27,733 nt of DNA from a virus. Shown here piece by piece: positions 8,178-26,166 of the stretch; position 1 is the stretch's first letter, and every line of letters starts with the position of its first letter. The translations under genes were made by a program, and so were the position numbers. The stretch spans positions 1 to 27,733 of IMG/VR virus record IMGVR_UViG_3300009024_000058; one strand, written 5' to 3'. Under the pieces are notes generated by a model. The model searched no databases, was not told the DNA's origin, and saw only the letters and a program-made list of their open reading frames with translations.

Positions 8178-8360
8178 ATGAAAAAGACAGATGCACGCAA
8201 GCCAATCTCAAACCGGGGGATACCGGGGAAGGATTACGCCGCTGAGGTCGCTGAGATACTGAGGCGACCACTGAAAAACGTCAGCGGCACCCCGCAACAT
8301 GAGCGCAAGTTTTCAGGCGCTCGCGCGGTCAAGAAATACCTTGAAGGGAAGCGCAAATGA
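8178..8360 (+). CDS. Small basic protein preceding the helicase
   Basis: The 60-residue protein starts at ATG 8178, behind a perfect AAGGGGAACC leader. The frame is open further upstream but lacks a site there. It is Lys/Arg-rich (MKKTDARKPISNRG near the start, VKKYLEGKRK at the end). Its stop overlaps the helicase start (ATGA), so the two are translationally coupled. No family is recognised; a nucleic-acid-binding partner of the helicase is possible but unproven. Confidence 0.6.
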   Translation: MKKTDARKPISNRGIPGKDYAAEVAEILRRPLKNVSGTPQHERKFSGARAVKKYLEGKRK

Positions 8361-10825
8361 AGGTTGCTCGCCCGTATCAAGATCGGTCCATTGATCAGTT
8401 GAGACGCGCACTGAGGGCCGGGAAAAAGCGCGTCGTCCTGCAACTTCCAACCGGGGCCGGGAAAACCTTTATCGCATCAAAGATCATCGCCGGGGCGCGG
8501 GCCAAGGAAAACCGCGTTGCCTTTACCGTGCCGCTGATCAGTCTCATCGGACAGACCGTTGAGAGCTTTTCAAACGAGGAAATTGATGCGGGGGTTATCC
8601 AAGCGGATCACGCCCTGACCGACCCTGAAAAGCCGGTTCAGGTTGCGAGCGTCCAGACCCTTGTGCGCCGGGATCGGGCTGACGCTGGACTAGCTCACAC
8701 AAAGCTCGCGGTCGTCGATGAATGCTTTAGTGGCGACACCGAAGTCCTGACTTCCAATGGGTTTGTGCGCTTTGATGAGACAAGCGGCGATGAGCTTTTC
8801 GCGCAATACGACATTGAGACCTCTGGGATAAGCTTTGCCAAAGCCTCAAGGCGCGTAAAGCGTAAGGCCACAGGCGTGGTCTATTCTGTACGGTCAGATC
8901 AGGGCGTTGATTTGATTGTCACCGGCGGTCATGAAATCATCAAGCAGCACAGCAAAACGGGCGTCAGATCAAAGGTGGCGGTCGAGAATTTCAGGCCGAA
9001 CAGCTATTGGCGACTGCCGGTTGCTGGGAGAGGGACCGGGCCGGAATTCCCCATGTCATCTTGGGAGCGCTTCATGATTGCGTATCAAGCTGATGGCTCA
9101 CTGCATCGGGAAAACAATGACGGTAGCTCGACCCTTTCGTTCAGCTTTTCAAAGCAGCGCAAAATTGATGAATTCCTTCGCCTGATCGAAGAGACTGGTC
9201 TCCGGTGGAGCGAGGTTTCTGGAAAGCAGAAAGAGGGTGTGGTGAAGGCAAGGCGGCGCTTTATGGTTTATATTGGCAGCGCTCCATCAAAGCAGATTTC
9301 CCATCACTTCAATCTTGCCAGCCTGTCAGCCACAAAGGCCAAGGCAATCATTGCGGAAATGGTCAAATGGGATGGTCATATCAATGCCAGCGGGCCTCAC
9401 AGCCTTGGCTTGAATACGACAAGCAAGGATGCGGCTGATTTCTACTCTGCGGTCTGTGTGCTGGCCGGATACAAAGCGACTGTCAGGCGGGTAACTGATA
9501 AGCGATCCCCCAAATTCAATGACGTGTTCAGGGTGGGTATTCTTACCGACAGGGATTACATAGGCACGCAACAAGTCAGGATTGAAACTGAGGATTATTA
9601 CACTGGAGACCTGCACTGCGTAACTGTGCCAAAGGGCAATATCGTCGTTCGCAGGAACGGCAAACCGGTGATTGTAGGAAATTGCCATATCGCGTCAAAG
9701 GCCATTGATGATTGGATGGGCGAAGAGCCTGACACGATTTTCATTGGCCTGTCAGCGACGCCTTGGCGCTACGGAATGGCCGAGCAATGGGACCACCTGA
9801 TCATCGGCTCGACCATCAGGGAGCTAACAGAACAGGGGTATCTTTCCCCATCGCGTTTCTTTGCGCCTCAACACCCTGACCTTGGCAACGTCAAGTTGGT
9901 CGCTGGTGACTTCAAGCTGGATCAATTGGCTGAGGCCATGCAAAAGGGCGATCTTGTCAGCGGCATCGTTTCGAATTGGATCGAAAATGGCGAGCGCCGC
10001 CCAACGCTTTGTTTCTGCGTTGACCGCGCACATGCCAGAGCGGTTCACCACGAATTCATGCAGCACGAGGTCAGGTCCGCATATATCGACGGGAACACTG
10101 ACACGATTGAACGCGCAGTTATTCTTGAGCGGTTCAGCCGGGGCGAGCTTGAGGTCATCGTCAACATCGGGACCATGACAGCCGGGGTCGATCTGCCAAG
10201 CGTTAGCTGCGTGGTTTTGGCTCGGCCTACCCGGTCTGAAATGCTCTACATCCAGATGGTCGGTCGCGGATTGCGGTTGCATGAGGGGAAAGAGGATTGC
10301 CTTGTGTTCGATCACTCAGGCACCGCCCTCAGACTTGGCTTGCCTGAAAACATTCACCACGAGGAATTGCGAGCGCCGCGACTTGAGGAACGCGAAAAGG
10401 GCGAGGCTGTCAAAGAGCCTAAGCTGCCAACGGAATGCCCTGAGTGCAGCTACCTGATCGCAGTCGGGGAGTACGATTGCCCATGCTGCGGATACAAGGG
10501 TCAGCCGCCGGTCATCCAGCGTGAGGTGATTGACAGTGATTTGATTGAGGTCGGCAAGGGCAAGGCCGAGAAACCAGTGGCGACGCACGAGGAAAAGCAA
10601 TTTTGGTATTCTGAGCTGCTGACCTATTCCCGGTCGAAAGGCTACAAGGACGGTTGGGCGTCAAACAAGTATCGGGACAAGTTTGGCGTATGGCCTCGCG
10701 GTCTGGACAAGATACCGGCACGCAAAAGTGCCGACACGCGGATTGTTCGCGGCTGGATCAAACACACTCAGATTGCATACGCGAAACAAAAGGAAGCTGA
10801 GAAAAAACAGGCTAAGGCGGGATAA
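8357..10825 (+). CDS. SF2 DEAD/DEAH-type helicase precursor containing an intein
   Basis: An 822-residue precursor; after splicing the helicase would be 502 residues. Extein motifs in order: Walker A LPTGAGKT (residues 30-37), Ia (FTVPLISLIGQT), II (VVDE before the intein, CH after it, giving a DECH box), III (GLSATPWR), V (NIGTMTAGVDLPS) and VI (QMVGRGLR). The C-terminus has a four-Cys zinc ribbon (CPEC, CPCC, about 694-714) and a basic tail, resembling RadD/UvsW-like phage helicases. Likely role: ATP-driven unwinding or branch remodelling in replication and recombination. The mature enzyme cannot have an intact Walker B motif until the intein leaves. Confidence 0.9.
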   Translation: MKVARPYQDRSIDQLRRALRAGKKRVVLQLPTGAGKTFIASKIIAGARAKENRVAFTVPLISLIGQTVESFSNEEIDAGVIQADHALTDPEKPVQVASVQTLVRRDRADAGLAHTKLAVVDECFSGDTEVLTSNGFVRFDETSGDELFAQYDIETSGISFAKASRRVKRKATGVVYSVRSDQGVDLIVTGGHEIIKQHSKTGVRSKVAVENFRPNSYWRLPVAGRGTGPEFPMSSWERFMIAYQADGSLHRENNDGSSTLSFSFSKQRKIDEFLRLIEETGLRWSEVSGKQKEGVVKARRRFMVYIGSAPSKQISHHFNLASLSATKAKAIIAEMVKWDGHINASGPHSLGLNTTSKDAADFYSAVCVLAGYKATVRRVTDKRSPKFNDVFRVGILTDRDYIGTQQVRIETEDYYTGDLHCVTVPKGNIVVRRNGKPVIVGNCHIASKAIDDWMGEEPDTIFIGLSATPWRYGMAEQWDHLIIGSTIRELTEQGYLSPSRFFAPQHPDLGNVKLVAGDFKLDQLAEAMQKGDLVSGIVSNWIENGERRPTLCFCVDRAHARAVHHEFMQHEVRSAYIDGNTDTIERAVILERFSRGELEVIVNIGTMTAGVDLPSVSCVVLARPTRSEMLYIQMVGRGLRLHEGKEDCLVFDHSGTALRLGLPENIHHEELRAPRLEEREKGEAVKEPKLPTECPECSYLIAVGEYDCPCCGYKGQPPVIQREVIDSDLIEVGKGKAEKPVATHEEKQFWYSELLTYSRSKGYKDGWASNKYRDKFGVWPRGLDKIPARKSADTRIVRGWIKHTQIAYAKQKEAEKKQAKAG
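8723..9682 (+). other. In-frame intein (320 residues) with a LAGLIDADG-type homing endonuclease domain
   Basis: The intein starts at Cys123 (CFSGDTEVLT, block A) and ends at Asn442 (CVTVPKGNIVVRRNGKPVIVGN spans 20-odd residues here; its core is VVRRNGKPVIVGN, blocks F/G), followed by Cys443 as +1 residue. Block B is IVTGGHEII, with the usual Thr and His. Two dodecapeptide-like motifs, MIAYQADGS (about residue 240) and MVKWDGHIN (about 335), each keep the acidic residue, so the nuclease may be active. The penultimate residue is Gly rather than the common His, a known tolerated variant. Composition matches the flanking helicase. Confidence 0.9.
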
Positions 10826-16566: not shown

Positions 16567-16567
16567 A

Positions 16568-16828
16568 TCAGTCCCCTTTCATATAGATTTCGATCCCAAG
16601 CTCGGACACCGCAAGAGCGGCAGTCAGATAGCTGTCAACGCGGGCCATATCGACATGACGCGCGGCCTCAGGATTGGATGAGGTCTGATAGTTACGACCG
16701 TGCATAACCTCAGACCGCATGGTGGCGAGAGCCTCAGTCAGAGCGTTCGCAGCGGCGTGAACCGCGCGACCATGACGCTTGAATGTCTCTGGCGTGTCGC
16801 CGTTACGATTTGGTTTTGCATTGAGCAT
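16568..16828 (-). CDS. Hypothetical protein, 86 residues
   Basis: The ATG at 16828 is preferred because a full AAAGGGGAACC leader precedes it; a longer frame to 16882 overlaps the previous gene and lacks a site. The protein is largely helical (Ala/Glu-rich centre with HAAANALTEALATMRSE) and soluble. No family is recognised. It ends one base before the start of the next gene. Confidence 0.55.
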   Translation of the reverse strand: MLNAKPNRNGDTPETFKRHGRAVHAAANALTEALATMRSEVMHGRNYQTSSNPEAARHVDMARVDSYLTAALAVSELGIEIYMKGD

Positions 16829-16844
16829 GTGGTTCCCCTTTCGA

Positions 16845-17147
16845 TTAGGTAAAGCAAACGATTGTCGTGGCATCATCGCCACTCACACGGATTTCAGTCC
16901 AGCGCGTCGAGCCGCTGGCATTCTTGACGAACTCAACGCCGGTGATGCCGTGCATGGTTCCGTACACTGCCGAAACATCGCAGTCCCGCACGGGAAGGCT
17001 CAGGTTCAAATCCGCCTCACTGAAAAGCGTGAATTCAGACACGCCCTGCGAAGTGTGTACGTTGATGACTTGCGAGATCGTGCCACCGCTCAAAGTGCGG
17101 GGCGGCGACATTGTGATTTCGGTTACATTGTGAATAGAAAGTTGCAT
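16845..17147 (-). CDS. Hypothetical beta-rich protein, 100 residues
   Basis: The start at 17147 has the AAAAGGGGAACC leader. The sequence alternates hydrophobic and polar residues (MQLSIHNVTEITM, VINVHTSQGVSEFTLF, ADLNLSLPV), which suggests a small beta-sandwich or barrel. No family is recognised and no signal peptide or membrane segment is visible. Confidence 0.55.
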   Translation of the reverse strand: MQLSIHNVTEITMSPPRTLSGGTISQVINVHTSQGVSEFTLFSEADLNLSLPVRDCDVSAVYGTMHGITGVEFVKNASGSTRWTEIRVSGDDATTIVCFT

Positions 17148-17176
17148 TTGGTTCCCCTTTTTTCAAATCTCATCAG

Positions 17177-17193
17177 ACCGGGTTTGACCCGGT
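17177..17193 (-). other. Intercistronic hairpin ACCGGG / CCCGGT
   Basis: A perfect six-bp stem with a five-base loop (TTTGA on the plus strand) between the genes at 17220 and 17147. It lies 14 bases ahead of the A-rich AAAAAAGGGGAACC leader of the downstream gene and lacks a following U-run on the leftward message, so it is more likely a processing or stability hairpin than a terminator. Confidence 0.45.
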
Positions 17194-17219
17194 GACGCCC
17201 CCGAAGGGACGTTTCGATT

Positions 17220-17423
17220 TTAGCGCAGTCGCGCGGCTTCATACATGAGGTTGGCCCGCTTAACGGCCAACAGAACCGCGCTTTTGCGGGGCGTCACGCC
17301 GAATTCATCGGCGGCATATTCCGCAGCAACTCGCGGCATGTCACGGCGCTCGCCGCTGACCATAAAGGTCTCATATGCGGCGTGAGCCATGTCATCAATT
17401 TGGGTTTCTGTAAGGTAGGTCAT
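17220..17423 (-). CDS. Hypothetical small helical protein, 67 residues
   Basis: The product (MTYLTETQIDDMAHAAYE at the start) is predicted to be all helical and soluble, with no recognised family. An AAAGGGACTAA leader supports the ATG at 17423. A hairpin at 17437-17452 directly precedes this leader. Confidence 0.55.
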   Translation of the reverse strand: MTYLTETQIDDMAHAAYETFMVSGERRDMPRVAAEYAADEFGVTPRKSAVLLAVKRANLMYEAARLR

Positions 17424-17436
17424 TTAGTCCCTTTCT

Positions 17437-17452
17437 GGGGGCCGAAGCCCCC
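17437..17452 (-). other. Hairpin with a UUCG tetraloop ahead of a gene leader
   Basis: GGGGGC and GCCCCC enclose CGAA on the plus strand, which is UUCG in the leftward RNA, an exceptionally stable tetraloop. It lies between the stop at 17458 and the AAAGGG leader of the next gene. A stable intercistronic hairpin can protect the upstream message or partly terminate it. Confidence 0.6.
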
Positions 17453-17457
17453 GGCCA

Positions 17458-17628
17458 TTAAGCGGCAAGACGGTCCATTTCAGCCTTAGCGGCACGAACC
17501 TCAACTTCGTCGGCGTCACCGCGCTTAAACATGGTCAGCAGACGGTTAAATTCGGTTGCGGCCTTGTCACTAGCAACCAGACGCTCGACTTCGAGCTTAA
17601 ACTCGGTAGCACTGTTCAGATTACACAT
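17458..17628 (-). CDS. Small acidic protein, 56 residues, first gene of the leftward accessory block
   Basis: A short gene with ATG at 17628, AAAGGGG eight bases upstream, and a TAA stop at 17458-17460. The product begins MCNLNSATEFKLEVERLV and is probably a single amphipathic helical hairpin rich in Ala, Glu, Asp and Arg. The good leader, the hairpin directly after it and the first-in-operon position support it as real. No family is recognised. Confidence 0.6.
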   Translation of the reverse strand: MCNLNSATEFKLEVERLVASDKAATEFNRLLTMFKRGDADEVEVRAAKAEMDRLAA

Positions 17629-17871
17629 AACAAGTCCCCTTTCGTTTCGGCCCTGCGATGGGCGCTCATCAGTGACCCCGCTTCAGGGTCATACGAGTGT
17701 CTGTCTCAAACCAGTCCGGTGGTGCAGCGTCGTCCAAGTGCGATGCGGTCCTGCGTTAGTGGGATGTGCGGCTTACATTCTATGCGCCCACCCCAACCCC
17801 GTCCTAGAGATCAGTTGGCCCTTATGCTTGGGGGGTCCGTCCCGTGAGGCTCTTCTGTGTGCCTCAATACT

Positions 17872-17899
17872 GATATATGCAGGTTTTTGCTGCTTTCAA
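17872..17899 (-). promoter_or_regulatory. Putative leftward promoter for the accessory block
   Basis: On the minus strand TTGAAA (17894-17899), a 16-base spacer and TATATC (17872-17877). The predicted start near 17865 would give a leader of about 240 bases containing a TGACCC/GGGTCA hairpin before the first gene at 17628. Confidence 0.4.
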
Positions 17900-17975
17900 T
17901 AGATTATGAGAATAAATCGTATAACCCACTGAAATCATTGAATGTTGTTCGTGACAGAAATGACCCCAAAAACAC

Positions 17976-18055
17976 CCCTGACACGAGAAAACCCTTATTT
18001 TTATGACGCTGACAACCCTGACAGCCGGCTAAAACCCCCTGACACGGCCCTGACA
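17976..18055. repeat. Four CCCTGACA direct repeats (iteron-like)
   Basis: Exact copies start at 17976, 18016, 18037 and 18048, with a partial GCTGACA near 18008, all in the same orientation and within 80 bases. They lie between an A+T-rich segment and the C-run array in the gap upstream of the terminase genes. Confidence 0.75.
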
Positions 18056-18076
18056 GGGTGGCGATGACAGAAGTAT

Positions 18077-18126
18077 CCCCCCCATGTCCCCCCGCATGTC
18101 CCCCGCATGTCCCCCGTGTCCCCCCC
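18077..18126. repeat. Five-fold C-run array with G-quadruplex potential on the minus strand
   Basis: C-runs of 7, 6, 5, 5 and 7 bases are separated by ATGT, GCATGT, GCATGT and GTGT. On the minus strand these are five G-tracts with four- to six-base loops, well beyond the usual four-tract quadruplex rule. The spacer regularity (repeat unit near CCCCCGCATGT) argues for function. The array is about 165 bases upstream of the small terminase start. Confidence 0.8.
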
Positions 18127-18290
18127 GATATGTAGGAACGCACCCGCTGTTGTCATGGCAAGGTGTCATCGGTAATGTCCCCGCCAAGCCAGTTGCAATC
18201 CTCAGTGCGTGATTGGCTCAAGGCGGGTCGGGGCCTTTCCTCCCTTTTGTGCCTCGACCCGCAGCGCTGGACAGCGAAAGGACAGACCGG

Positions 18291-18818
18291 ATGGTCAAGA
18301 TGATCAAGAACGCGCCACGTCAGCGCAAGGTCACAGCACCAATGGGCGACGCCGACTTTGGCACCAAGCTCAATGGCGAGGAAAAGATCAAACCCGGCAG
18401 AGACCAGATAGCCGCGCTGGATGATCAGGAATTCCAGCAAGTAATCCGCATGTGTCGGTGGCAAGCCTCAGCCGAGGAAGTGCGCGATGTGATGCAACTC
18501 ACACAGCAAACACTTGAGGCGCTTTGCAAGAAACATGGGTTTCCGTCCTTCAGGTCAGTTTACCTAAAATACAGTGCTGGCGGGCGGATGAGCTTGCGCC
18601 GGGCGCAGTATGCAGCGGCTATATATGACCGCAATCCGGCCATGCTTATATGGCTCGGAAAACAGCACTTGGATCAGGCTGACAAGAAGCACGTTATCAA
18701 TGAGAACATCGAAAAGCTGACGGTAGACCCGAGCAAGCTTTCGGATGAGACCCTGAAGGAAATCGTGGACAACGCTGAGGTCATCGACCTTGAGGCCAGC
18801 GAGTACAGTGAGGACTGA
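18291..18818 (+). CDS. Terminase small subunit, putative
   Basis: The 175-residue protein starts at ATG 18291, with AAAGGA eight bases upstream; the frame is open further upstream but without a good site. The N-terminus is basic. The middle has a helix-turn-helix-like stretch (ASAEEVRDVMQLTQQTLEALCKKHG) and a conserved-looking MSLRRAQ...PAMLIWLGKQHL segment seen in phage small terminases. These proteins bind the packaging site and load the large subunit. The gene directly precedes the large subunit with a TGATG overlap, which carries most of the weight. Confidence 0.75.
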   Translation: MVKMIKNAPRQRKVTAPMGDADFGTKLNGEEKIKPGRDQIAALDDQEFQQVIRMCRWQASAEEVRDVMQLTQQTLEALCKKHGFPSFRSVYLKYSAGGRMSLRRAQYAAAIYDRNPAMLIWLGKQHLDQADKKHVINENIEKLTVDPSKLSDETLKEIVDNAEVIDLEASEYSED

Positions 18819-20245
18819 TGCGGCTGACACCTCAGGACATTGTTGCCGCCGAAAAGGAAATGTGCAGTCGGTCTCTGTCATACTTCCTCAAGAGGGGCTG
18901 GCCCGTGATCGACCCCGGTCAGACCTACCTGCACGGATGGCACATGGATGCGATGGCAGAACACCTTGAGGCGGCGGTTGACGGGAAGATCAGCCGACTG
19001 TTGATCAACATCCCGCCGGGAACCTCGAAGTCCTCAATGGTCGGCGTGTTTTTTCCCGCGTGGCTATGGGGGCCGAAAGGTATGCCTCACTCGCGCATCC
19101 TGTCAGCCTCACATGAACAGGACTTGGCGATAAGGGATAACAGGAAGTCCCGGCTATTGATCGAAAGCGACTGGTATCAATCCCGCTGGCCAGTGCAGAT
19201 GACAAGCGACCAGAACGAGAAACGGTACTTCGAGAATGACAAGCGCGGGTTCCGTCAGGCGAGCGCAGTCAAGGGCATGACAGGCAAGCGTGGCGACTTT
19301 GTGATCTGGGATGATCCCCTGTCACCTGAGAAAGCCTACTCTGACGTTGAGCGCGAGACCGCGAACCGGGTATTCTCTGAGACCCTGCCACTGCGCCTGA
19401 ATAATCCCGATAGCTCGGTGATCATCATTGTCATGCAGCGACTGCACGAGGGCGACGTGTCAGGCTACATCCTCGAGAACGACTTTGGGTATGAGCATTT
19501 GATGTTGCCGATGGAATACGAACCTGATCGGGCGCGTACCACCTCTATCGGGTTCAAAGACCCAAGGACCAAAGAGGGCGAGCTTCTTATGCCGGATCGG
19601 TTCAGCCGCAAGACGGTTGAGCGCGACAAGAAAGTTCTGGGTCCGTTCGCACATGCTGGCCAGTATCAGCAAAGGCCAGCGCCACGAGAGGGTGGCCTGT
19701 TCAAGCCCCACAAGATGGAAGTGATCCAAGCGCCGCCGGTCTGCGTCAGAGAGGTCAGGGGGTGGGACTTGGCCGCGACCGCTGATGTGAGCGCCGCAAG
19801 GACCGCCGGGGTTCGCATCGGTCGGCTACCTGACGGACGAACGGTTATTGTCGATGTGGTGAAAGGTCAGCTCGGCCCGGCGGATGTTACGGCCCTGATC
19901 AAGAACACCGCTGCCATAGATGGCCGGGGGGTCGAAGGCTCGCTGCCACAAGACCCCGGTCAGGCCGGTAAAGCTCAGGTCCAGTCGCTACTGGCGAGCT
20001 TGGCAGGATTGGTTTATCGCGCTACACCGGAGACTGGTGACAAGGTGACAAGGGCGACACCTCTTGCAGCTCAGATTGACGCGGGGAATGTTTTGCTTGT
20101 CAAAGGGGATTGGAACCGCGATTTTATTAATGAGCTTGCAAGTTTTCCGTCTGGCAAATTTGCTGACCAAGTTGATGCGGCCTCAAGGGCGTTCATGGCC
20201 CTGACATTGGCACCGCCGCGAGCCAAGCAAGGAAGGCAACGATGA
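18818..20245 (+). CDS. Terminase large subunit (ATPase and nuclease)
   Basis: A complete 475-residue DNA-packaging motor. ATPase: Walker A-like IPPGTSKS (residues 65-72), Walker B FVIWDDP (161-167) and coupling motif VIIIVMQRLHEGD (201-213). The RNase H-like nuclease has acidic residues Asp317 (RGWDLAATAD), Asp379 (LPQDPGQ) and Asp450/Asp453 (KFADQVDAASRAF). It translocates DNA into proheads and cuts it to length. It resembles TIGR01630-type terminases. The start overlaps the small-subunit stop (TGATG) and its end overlaps the portal start (ATGA). Confidence 0.92.
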   Translation: MRLTPQDIVAAEKEMCSRSLSYFLKRGWPVIDPGQTYLHGWHMDAMAEHLEAAVDGKISRLLINIPPGTSKSSMVGVFFPAWLWGPKGMPHSRILSASHEQDLAIRDNRKSRLLIESDWYQSRWPVQMTSDQNEKRYFENDKRGFRQASAVKGMTGKRGDFVIWDDPLSPEKAYSDVERETANRVFSETLPLRLNNPDSSVIIIVMQRLHEGDVSGYILENDFGYEHLMLPMEYEPDRARTTSIGFKDPRTKEGELLMPDRFSRKTVERDKKVLGPFAHAGQYQQRPAPREGGLFKPHKMEVIQAPPVCVREVRGWDLAATADVSAARTAGVRIGRLPDGRTVIVDVVKGQLGPADVTALIKNTAAIDGRGVEGSLPQDPGQAGKAQVQSLLASLAGLVYRATPETGDKVTRATPLAAQIDAGNVLLVKGDWNRDFINELASFPSGKFADQVDAASRAFMALTLAPPRAKQGRQR

Positions 20246-24324: not shown

Positions 24325-24455
24325 TGGAAACCATCAAGATCATCGACGATACCCCGCGCGGGTTTCGGATCATCAACAAGGCGGACTTTGATCCCAAGGT
24401 TCACACTGAATTCGGCAAGGCCAAGGCACCAGTCAAGCGTAGGGGTTCCAAGTAA
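24324..24455 (+). CDS. Small basic protein, 43 residues, in the head gene cluster
   Basis: The gene starts by a TGATG overlap with the previous stop and ends by a TAATG overlap with the next start, filling the gap exactly. The product begins METIKIIDDTPRGFRI and ends in a Lys/Arg-rich tail (KAKAPVKRRGSK). Tight coupling on both sides supports a real gene. Small proteins of this kind at head-tail junctions are common in phages; no function is assigned. Confidence 0.6.
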   Translation: METIKIIDDTPRGFRIINKADFDPKVHTEFGKAKAPVKRRGSK

Positions 24456-24976
24456 TGGCTTTGGTCGTAGAGGATGGAACAGGGCTTGCCACGGCTGAGA
24501 GTTTCGGCGCGGTTGCAGGTGCTGACGCCTATCACAGCGACCGGGGCAACACAGACTGGACGGGAACGGACGAAGTGAAGGAACAGGCGCTGCGCCGGGC
24601 CTCCACGTTCCTGTCAGAAGGGTTCGCTTGGAAAAGCTGGCCTGTCAACGGACGCGATCAGGGGTTAGCTTTCCCCCGCGCCGTGTTCACAGACAATAAT
24701 GGGTACACCGTTTCTGGACTACCCAAGGAGATTGTTCTGGCGACGTATGAGATAGCCCTGAGGGAACTTGTGACACCGGGGGCAATGACCCCTGACTACA
24801 CGCCATCAGAACGGCTCGCATCAGCGTCGGTCGGTCCAATTTCCGTATCGTATGATCTGAGCCGCACAGATGCTGAGAGCGCCAGACCGGTGCTGCTTAT
24901 TGTCAAAGGGATCATCGGCCCACTGTTGGCTGGCGGTGGCGGCTCACGCCTAGTCGGCAACTCAAACCGGGCCTAA
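24455..24976 (+). CDS. DnaT-like / head-tail connector protein
   Basis: The 173-residue protein begins MALVVEDGTGLATAES and has ADAYHSDRGNTDWTG and EQALRRASTFL (about residues 22-52), a pattern shared by phage proteins annotated as DnaT-like single-strand DNA-binding proteins but always sited in head-tail clusters, where a connector role is more likely. It is all-helical in the first two thirds. It is the last virion gene in the window and is followed by a strong terminator. Tail genes are not present here and must lie elsewhere. Confidence 0.7.
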   Translation: MALVVEDGTGLATAESFGAVAGADAYHSDRGNTDWTGTDEVKEQALRRASTFLSEGFAWKSWPVNGRDQGLAFPRAVFTDNNGYTVSGLPKEIVLATYEIALRELVTPGAMTPDYTPSERLASASVGPISVSYDLSRTDAESARPVLLIVKGIIGPLLAGGGGSRLVGNSNRA

Positions 24977-24993
24977 CAATTCTGCCCCAACTG

Positions 24994-25021
24994 GACCCTC
25001 ATTCTCGGGGGTCTTTTTTTT
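24994..25021 (+). terminator. Strong intrinsic terminator ending the virion block
   Basis: GACCCTC (24994-25000) pairs with GGGGGTC (25007-25013) with one G-U pair and a six-base loop, followed directly by eight T. It separates the virion block from the RNA-like region that follows. Confidence 0.88.
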
Positions 25022-25027
25022 GACCGA

Positions 25028-25056
25028 TTGACGGTTGGGGAAATTGAGCCTAGAAA
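25028..25056 (+). promoter_or_regulatory. Putative promoter of a non-coding RNA
   Basis: TTGACG (25028-25033, five of six consensus), a 17-base spacer, then TAGAAA (25051-25056, four of six). It lies just after a strong terminator and predicts a transcript start near 25063, exactly where the first stable hairpin of the structured region begins. Confidence 0.6.
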
Positions 25057-25062
25057 AGAAAA

Positions 25063-25560
25063 ATGCCCCGGCTGTTTATCAGACACCGGGGCGTGGCGAC
25101 ACCGAATTTTATGGTCAGACGTAATGGTGTTGCAGAACAAGGGTTACAACAACATGAACCTACGTTCAAGAAATATGTCTGACCCCCGGTTTGCAGCGTT
25201 CCCGTGCCCAAAACGCTGATATGATCTGGGGTATTCACCCAACCCGGCAGGGGACTGGTTCCTACTAGGCCTTGCCAGATACGCGACAAAAGAACCCACC
25301 GGCTGGTGAAGGTCAGAATAGTGACTGTGACAGATCGGGGACCGTTTAACAGCGGGTCAGGATAGAAGCCTGAGGGATAGCGGCTGGCCACCGACAAAAG
25401 GCATCGCGTGGATACAGGTCAGGAGGTGTAGGAACTATCCCTGTATATCGGGGGATAGGAGCGGGTGACGGCTATTGCCTGACGAAAACTAGGTCACAAT
25501 CACTGACATATATCCCACCTATCAAAGCGGCTCTGGCCTCAGTAAACTGGTGCAAATCAG
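25063..25560 (+). ncRNA. Candidate large structured non-coding RNA (about 500 nt)
   Basis: No credible reading frame, but dense potential helices: GCCCCGG/CCGGGGC (25065-25071 with 25086-25092); a 72-base arm closed by GGTCAGAC/GTCTGACC (25113-25120 with 25177-25184), continuing as GTA/TAC and ATGGTGTTG/CAACAACAT; CAGCGTT/AACGCTG (25194-25218); GGCAGGG/CCTTGCC with inner CTGGT/ACTAG (25246-25276); ACC-CACC/GGTG-GGT (25294-25313); TCAGG/CCTGA (25357-25373); CTATCCC/GGGATAG (25435-25458). Size, promoter and phage setting recall the ornate large RNA classes GOLLD and ROOL, but membership is not shown. No clear terminator is seen before the next gene. Confidence 0.6.
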
Positions 25561-25572
25561 AAGGGGTGAATT

Positions 25573-26166
25573 ATGCGTGGATTGACTATGGGAGCGGCTG
25601 GTTTTTCGTGGCCAGCGACGGACGTGTTTGGGGTGGGATCGGCCATTGAGGCCGCAAGTGATCTTGTTGAGGCTTATGCCTACGTCTCACGGTACGGAGA
25701 GGCGATTTGTACCGTAGGGGATTGCGGCGTTTCGGCGGTGCTTTTGTCAGCGGAATTCAGGCGGGTCGAAGCCTATGAGCCTGACCCCGAAAATTACAGG
25801 GCGCTCTTGAAGAATTCGACCGAGAACGTCATGCCCTACTGCGCCGGCCTTTCTGGCAAATCTGGGACTGGTCATCTTGTCAGGGATGATCCCGACAATT
25901 GCAGATCGAACCGGATCATCATGTCAGGATCAAAGGTTGAGGTCTTTACCCTCGACAGCCGGTCATCCCGGCCCGACCTCATTGTCATTGGCGAGACCAA
26001 TCAGGACGCGCTTACAGGCGCAACAAGAACCCTGTCAGAGAACCGCCCGGTCCTGTTCTGCTTTGGCAAGCCTGAACCGACCCTTGAGCCTTGGCTGGAG
26101 ACGGTCGGCTACCGGATCGTACAGCGCACAGATAGCGGGTTCATCTGTACTCATTCCGCCGATTGA
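25573..26166 (+). CDS. FkbM-like SAM-dependent methyltransferase, divergent
   Basis: A 197-residue protein with a Rossmann-type methyltransferase outline: motif I-like TVGDCGVSAVLLS (about residues 47-59), VEAYEPDPENYRAL carrying the acidic ribose-binding loop, and a C-terminal LTGATRTLSENRPVLFCFGK...VGYRI block as in FkbM enzymes. The usual KxDVEG segment is replaced by LIVIGETNQD, so activity is uncertain. FkbM relatives O-methylate sugars. AAGGGG lies six bases before ATG 25573. It follows the structured RNA and may be read from the same transcript. Confidence 0.6.
   Translation: MRGLTMGAAGFSWPATDVFGVGSAIEAASDLVEAYAYVSRYGEAICTVGDCGVSAVLLSAEFRRVEAYEPDPENYRALLKNSTENVMPYCAGLSGKSGTGHLVRDDPDNCRSNRIIMSGSKVEVFTLDSRSSRPDLIVIGETNQDALTGATRTLSENRPVLFCFGKPEPTLEPWLETVGYRIVQRTDSGFICTHSAD

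Follow-up and report, generated by a model that had tools for sequence, protein, structure and literature searches.

A structured noncoding RNA of an undescribed family in mobile elements of the Rhodobacterales

The RNA locus and its surroundings

The window, a 27.7-kb virus record (27,733 nucleotides) analyzed over its whole length, carries a series of phage head genes: a terminase region (18213-20245), followed by the portal, scaffold, and major head protein genes, and then by the head-tail adaptor gene Ad1 (24455-24976, + strand; PHROG 477, E 8.8e-40). The operon is closed by an intrinsic terminator with a T8 tail (24993-25014, + strand), the strong terminator of the original prediction, and this is the upstream neighbor of the RNA, which is encoded on the + strand at 25104-25480 and does not adjoin the terminase genes. 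Downstream lie a gene for a methyltransferase-like protein (25573-26166, + strand; PHROG 8156, E 7e-6) and a number of small genes. Because more head-completion genes resume about 3 kb past the RNA region on a longer contig from this phage, the RNA-bearing stretch looks like an accessory insert; judged by ORF layout, an equivalent gap is absent in relatives with a 66-74% identical head protein. ARAGORN detected no tRNA or tmRNA in the window. Elsewhere in the record, the helicase gene (8357-10825, + strand) contains an insert of approximately 320 aa that matches intein-bearing parts of other phage proteins and is likely an intein, and much of the gap at 16567-18212, examined for comparison, seems to be made up of small genes, read leftward, that have AGGGG ribosome sites.

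The original prediction placed a large structured phage RNA, with its own promoter, at 25028-25560. The promoter letters (TTGACG, 25028-25033; TAGAAA, 25051-25056; 17 bases between) are present, but a promoter is not supported: the letters are weak and not conserved, the promoter scan found none where 2.0 were expected by chance, and sigma-70-like enrichment was absent throughout the upstream regions of 59 family members. Neither the scan nor the upstream regions of members revealed a conserved promoter or terminator of the RNA family, and no terminator was found 3' of the RNA in the window. A hairpin at 25050-25092 (GCCCCGG...CCGGGGC), followed by ATTTTTCTTTTCT on the - strand, resembles a terminator of leftward transcription that faces the one of the head genes.

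As anticipated, the region lacks a usable reading frame, the largest being 63 aa (+ strand, TTG start) and 115 aa (- strand; no Pfam match), and a coding explanation was rejected because the conservation is not protein-like and the structure covaries. The + strand of 25050-25570 folds more stably than each of 100 shuffled sequences (z = -2.93), and the - strand is ordinary (z = -1.03). The suggestion that the density of structure is unlike that of other gaps did not hold, however; several 250-base windows elsewhere, some of them coding, fold equally well or better relative to their own shuffles. As other windows reach similar z values, folding energy alone was judged insufficient to set the region apart.

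Family members and conserved fold

At gathering thresholds, Rfam models matched neither the window nor 11 other loci that carry the family, and the GOLLD or ROOL membership suggested originally is thus not borne out by the covariance models. With Rfam 15 at a relaxed threshold (E up to 5), the region alone gave two implausible eukaryotic/plant-virus matches (E 1.8 and 3.3). BLASTN against phage records returned no relatives, just chance matches in Klebsiella phages; E. coli genomes contained no match to the RNA; and viral contigs searched with the neighboring proteins and the spurious 115-aa frame yielded only same-phage copies, on two contigs. The first relative came from a sensitive search of plasmids, as a weak BLASTN match (E 0.2) in several blocks of conserved order, on a Rhodobacteraceae plasmid, within a 1.2-kb noncoding gap immediately upstream of a small terminase gene. 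Search patterns derived from the segment common to window and plasmid identified six further records among viral contigs, with one more viral contig from another pattern search, and, in genome contigs, a set of Rhodobacteraceae loci amid random matches, including loci of Leisingera sp. JC1, Ruegeria lacuscaerulensis, and Yoonia ponticola. A later viral-contig pattern added 16 viral members. Alignment of these relatives shows that they have the RNA in common.

A covariance model of 204 positions, R1, was built on window positions 25277-25466 and scores 117-211 bits on all members, with no matches in 18 unrelated phage loci. The window, which is part of the seed, matches R1 over its full length (25277-25466, 194.7 bits); the highest score among members not in the seed is 199.7 bits, and the family was first detected through unrelated records. 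The 64 distinct members occur in Rhodobacterales genomes and viral contigs. Of 397 genomes from the family to which a Leisingera genome belongs, 17 matched R1, as did 21 of 296 from the corresponding order; these counts are lower bounds given the strict filters, and the search in the order found three copies in one genome. Beyond the order, under equally strict filters, no other genome matched among 384 from the class and 298 from the phylum. We found no description of the RNA family in the open-access literature. The noncoding RNA encoded at 25104-25480 (+ strand) belongs to a new, undescribed family that has no Rfam match and is found on several types of mobile element, all within a single bacterial order, the Rhodobacterales.

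The size and complexity of the RNA, together with HNH genes in some of its settings, would suit a ribozyme, a group I/II intron, or a nuclease guide RNA (HEARO/OMEGA RNA). Yet no such family gave an Rfam match, no gene is interrupted by the RNA, and no IscB/IsrB/TnpB-like partner gene was recognized beside it, and we regard these identities as extremely improbable.

In the member alignment, conservation extends over approximately 377 nt, from TTTTAT before helix P0 to TATTGCCT; these limits of conservation define the ends, which are putative as transcript ends. The conserved part falls within the interval proposed originally but is shorter than the roughly 500 bases envisaged. All helices described here are on the + strand. 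The 5' domain, P0 (25113-25184), pairs GGTCAGACGTA (25113-25123) with TATGTCTGACC (25174-25184); the helix is kept with different letters in 39 members, and own-strand pairing reached 729, as compared with a mean of 539 and a maximum of 621 in 10000 permutations. A CCACGG/CCGGGG pairing at the 5' end, noted by eye, was dropped, as it competes with the better supported P1. Hairpin P2 (25194-25218), in which CAGCGTT (25194-25200) would pair with AACGCTG (25212-25218) around the loop CCCGTGCCCAA, is proposed from the sequence; by eye, the loop CCCGYGCC is common to nearer relatives and the stem letters differ.

The core is enclosed by two helices supported by covariation. In the long-range helix P1 (25222-25421), TGATCTG (25222-25228) pairs with CAGGTCA (25415-25421); 301 of 312 cells pair across 52 members (permuted mean 223, maximum 243), with two-sided change in six of the seven pairs. 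The closing helix (25235-25468) joins TCACCC (25235-25240) to GGGTGA (25463-25468), and across the family ACCC accompanies CGGGT in 34 members and ACCCC accompanies CGGGG in 24, with two exceptions. Hairpin P3 (25246-25276), GGCAGG with CCTTGCC, covaries by eye and carries in its loop one strand of a pseudoknot (25260-25433) between TCCTAC (25260-25265) and GTAGGA (25428-25433), for which 308 of 318 pairs form (permuted mean 255, maximum 270) and five of six pairs change on both sides. Covariation likewise supports helix P4 (25281-25409; ACGCGA, 25281-25286, with TCGCGT, 25404-25409), with 97.9% of cells paired and all six pairs changing on both sides; arm P5/P5a (25299-25338; CCGGCTG with CAG-A-TCGG, inner GTCA at 25312-25315 with TGAC at 25322-25325); P6 (CCGT, 25342-25345, with GCGG, 25352-25355; 98.4% paired); and hairpin P7 (TCAGG, 25357-25361, with CCTGA, 25369-25373; 100% paired), P6 and P7 together showing two-sided change in nine of nine pairs. 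The most conserved segment, GGGATAGCGGCTGGCCACCGACAAAAGGCATCGCGTGGATA (25374-25414), contains many invariant columns and served as a search pattern. The 3' hairpin P8 (25434-25459), ACTATCCCT with GGGGATAGG, also covaries. Comparison of the members shows a predicted fold made up of the P0 stem, a multibranch core closed by P1 and the outer closing helix and locked by the pseudoknot, and a 3' hairpin.

When the 64 distinct sequences were aligned by fitting to R1, 96.6% of cells in the R1 helices were standard pairs, as opposed to 80.4% in shuffled alignments and 38-53% in slid structures; two-sided change was seen in 30 of 35 pairs (293 cells versus 62 in shuffles), a level that none of 500 shuffles reached. 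An independent MAFFT alignment of 21 sequences, with P1 and the pseudoknot included, was 95.7% paired (0 of 500 shuffles), and 25 of its 37 pairs changed on both sides. Although kinship of the sequences inflates the counts, the number of independent letter combinations (e.g., GATCC/GGATC, TTCACC/GGTGAA, AGTTC/GAACT, and TAGATC/GATCTA) leaves us in no doubt that the covariation is real. We regard this overwhelming compensatory change among relatives as decisive for the structured RNA predicted at 25028-25560 and, with the lack of an Rfam match, for the variant of that prediction in which the large, ornate, phage-borne RNA belongs to a new class. The strand is fixed by the G-U cells (155), which outnumber A-C cells (17) when the + strand is read as the RNA.

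The alternative pairings proposed for GGATAG (25360, 25375, and 25453; CTATCC at 25435, CCTATC at 25518) are real and conserved in the family, and involve two copies of GGGATAG and one of CTATCCC. The CTATCCC of P8 also matches the upstream GGGATAG at 25374-25380, giving an alternative helix in which 403 of 440 cells pair, above all of 2000 permutations. The upstream GGG-N-N-AG, middle CU-N-N-CCC, and downstream GGGG-N-N-AG vary together across the family. The simplest reading of this three-way pairing would be strand exchange while the RNA folds; the measured covariation of both pairings is compatible with a switch and is no proof of a dynamic one, and the triple pairing might, in principle, stem from a DNA repeat instead.

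Genomic settings and a second RNA class

The RNA occurs in several settings. At 15 loci (setting A), it points away from the recombinase operon of integrating islands, which encodes two tyrosine recombinases, a helix-turn-helix protein, a protein of about 290 aa, and often a serine recombinase; unrelated DNA follows the RNA. At 24 loci (setting B), a small ORF of about 80 aa is followed by the RNA, sometimes a head-tail adaptor gene, a cos-like block (GGTCCCAATGCC), and TerL, after which come HNH, capsid, protease, and portal genes; integrase and replication genes are also present, and no tail genes were recognized where annotated. By gene content, these carriers appear to be capsid-encoding satellites. 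They resemble capsid-forming PICI satellites in combining integrase, replication gene, TerL, HNH, capsid, protease, and portal within approximately 10-14 kb and in lacking recognized tail genes, a likeness drawn from gene content, with not every ORF annotated. At five loci (setting C), the RNA precedes a Terminase_2 small subunit (TerS) gene, and in three of these it lies between that gene and the type VI secretion gene vgrG (L093, L245, L246). The remaining loci (setting D) include the window and a 37-kb phage contig (L247), in which the RNA is near recombination and lysis genes. In a Paracoccus contig (L134), a CRISPR-like repeat array starts about 250 nt after the RNA, probably by chance of insertion.

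In most satellites (e.g., L327, L334, L345), the conserved block and a GC-rich tract lie about 84 bases before TerL and probably constitute a cos site. This block is separate from the RNA and is also kept by satellites without it, which argues against the RNA locus acting as DNA, that is, as a recombination, packaging, or single-strand origin site folding as single-stranded DNA. Proximity to recombinases in the islands and to the cos-like block in the satellites would agree with such an element; the one-strand bias of G-U over A-C and a multibranch, pseudoknotted fold of more than 300 nt fit RNA, and we consider a DNA-level element highly improbable.

The satellites also bear on a packaging RNA, a motor or recognition RNA working with terminase or portal in a manner comparable to phi29 pRNA, which is 174 nt long and essential. 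Like that molecule, the RNA belongs to tailed phages and part of its family is encoded near packaging genes, between the small ORF and the cos-like block by TerL (24 loci) or before TerS (five loci), in a slot that a second RNA class can also occupy. The family differs from pRNA, however, in its roughly twofold size, its lack of an Rfam match, and its optional presence among elements with the same terminase: of approximately 38 copies of the same TerL (at least 59% identity) in 397 genomes, three have the RNA. Further, no terminase was found in the examined flanks of the recombinase islands, and the window copy lies away from the terminase genes. A packaging RNA is therefore quite improbable, and the few RNA-bearing copies among the related TerL, together with the 15 recombinase loci, argue that a role at the packaging stage is not general.

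In nine RNA-less copies of related TerL satellites, the slot is filled by a second conserved structured RNA of approximately 320 nt (L334:2238-2584, - strand; L335:3977-4323, + strand; L336:2228-2581, - strand; L345:4015-4351, + strand; L346:2398-2732, - strand; and further loci L311, L313, L323, and L330). Among the nine sequences, 29 of 57 predicted pairs show two-sided compensatory change. There was no Rfam match in five of the nine loci and L330, which were scanned, and we found no relation between the two classes, R1 having no match to the second. It is possible, if rather unlikely, that the satellites have a dedicated RNA slot between the small ORF and the cos site/terminase, in which unrelated, interchangeable classes of structured RNA do the same job, the window family with a strand-exchange switch.

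The main rival to an independently acting RNA is a cis-acting leader, in which case the RNA would be the 5' untranslated region of the mRNA from the downstream operon and would control that operon, for example as an antiterminator or through its alternative helix. In its favor, the RNA is co-directed with the next genes in the window and at the 24 terminase and five TerS loci, the alternative pairing is conserved, and no terminator was found after the RNA in the window. In the window, eight bases of the RNA are also perfectly complementary to the region of the methyltransferase ribosome site: ATTCACCC (25233-25240) could pair with GGGTGAAT (25564-25571) over the start of that gene. This start-codon pairing is peculiar to the window, however; the downstream genes are unrelated across settings (TerL operons, the TerS gene, the methyltransferase gene, or unrelated host genes) and often not co-directed in the recombinase islands; and some members have an operator-like site after the RNA. 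In the window this is a near-palindrome, TAGGTCACAATCACTGACATA (25490-25510, + strand), directly 3' of the RNA and one mismatch from the strict form AGGTMA-N4-10-TKACCT, which occurs in nine of 64 members within 120 nt past the RNA end, usually at 22-24 nt, and nowhere in the 3 kb beyond those 120 nt. TAGGTMA-N-TKACCTA, sometimes in two copies, lies approximately 22-24 nt past the RNA in L223, L229, L233, L254, L258, L294, and L296. The near-palindrome probably serves as an operator through which a regulator controls the next operon, and its occurrence immediately 3' of the RNA in some members points to a separate promoter for this operon. Taken together, we find a cis-acting leader unlikely.

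Proposed role and known phage RNAs

We favor, at a probability of about one-half, a free-standing, trans-acting RNA that is induced by its element and that aids a late stage or interferes with a competitor. The element would make the RNA upon induction; the RNA would fold during transcription, strand exchange among GGGATAG, CTATCCC, and GGGGATAG delaying the final fold; and, once folded, the RNA would act by itself, as an oligomer, or in a complex with a protein from host or phage, aiding the element's late stage or interfering with a competing element. That the RNA is transcribed seems very probable. Action in trans, instead of on a downstream gene, is fairly probable, because no gene is a constant companion and the RNA heads no operon in the recombinase islands; against it, the RNA points into downstream genes in the window and at the terminase loci, and neither a conserved promoter nor a conserved terminator was found for the family. 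A late-stage or particle-related role is a tentative suggestion, to which the 24 loci where the head/packaging module of capsid-encoding elements begins with the RNA lend some weight, as does the second RNA that otherwise takes this slot.

Phage ICP1 and its PLE satellites are known to produce noncoding transcripts in abundance (PMC7567579), and, as in the new family, both phage and satellites carry them; one difference is that those RNAs were detected by RNA-seq. Inverted repeats flank the PLE transcript, which also matches its own leaders in antisense. This precedent, and the similar carriers (satellites and prophages), would accord with an antisense or immunity-type RNA, akin to the P4 immunity RNA or the PLE noncoding transcript, that base-pairs with element or helper transcripts. 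The whole RNA is selected for intramolecular structure, however, and most of its exposed conserved letters are invariant, not matched to element-specific targets; an antisense function is accordingly improbable.

The RNA that we propose to act in trans has its closest counterparts among the large RNAs of phages and prophages. GOLLD is structured, pseudoknotted, and several hundred nt long, and ROOL is ornate, with pseudoknots and no known protein partner (PMC12286853). The new family is likewise phage-borne, large, and pseudoknotted, but at about 380 nt it is shorter than ROOL and than GOLLD, which often exceeds 800 nt; it has no sequence or structure match to GOLLD and no Rfam match to ROOL. 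GOLLD is often beside tRNA genes, which the window lacks; nor is the family near tRNAs, as ROOL is. It also differs from GOLLD in occurring in satellites and recombinase islands, and from ROOL in being confined here to the Rhodobacterales. As far as one can see, it resembles other ornate phage RNAs in being large, pseudoknotted, and optional.

That a second RNA class occupies the satellite slot hints at a role in common, and the conserved three-way pairing offers a concrete folding hypothesis for probing. To our knowledge, very few large structured phage RNAs are known, and none has a settled job. As this family is compact and well defined, and resides in culturable Rhodobacterales hosts on elements of approximately 10-14 kb, the role of ornate phage RNAs may be testable by deleting the RNA from a small satellite.
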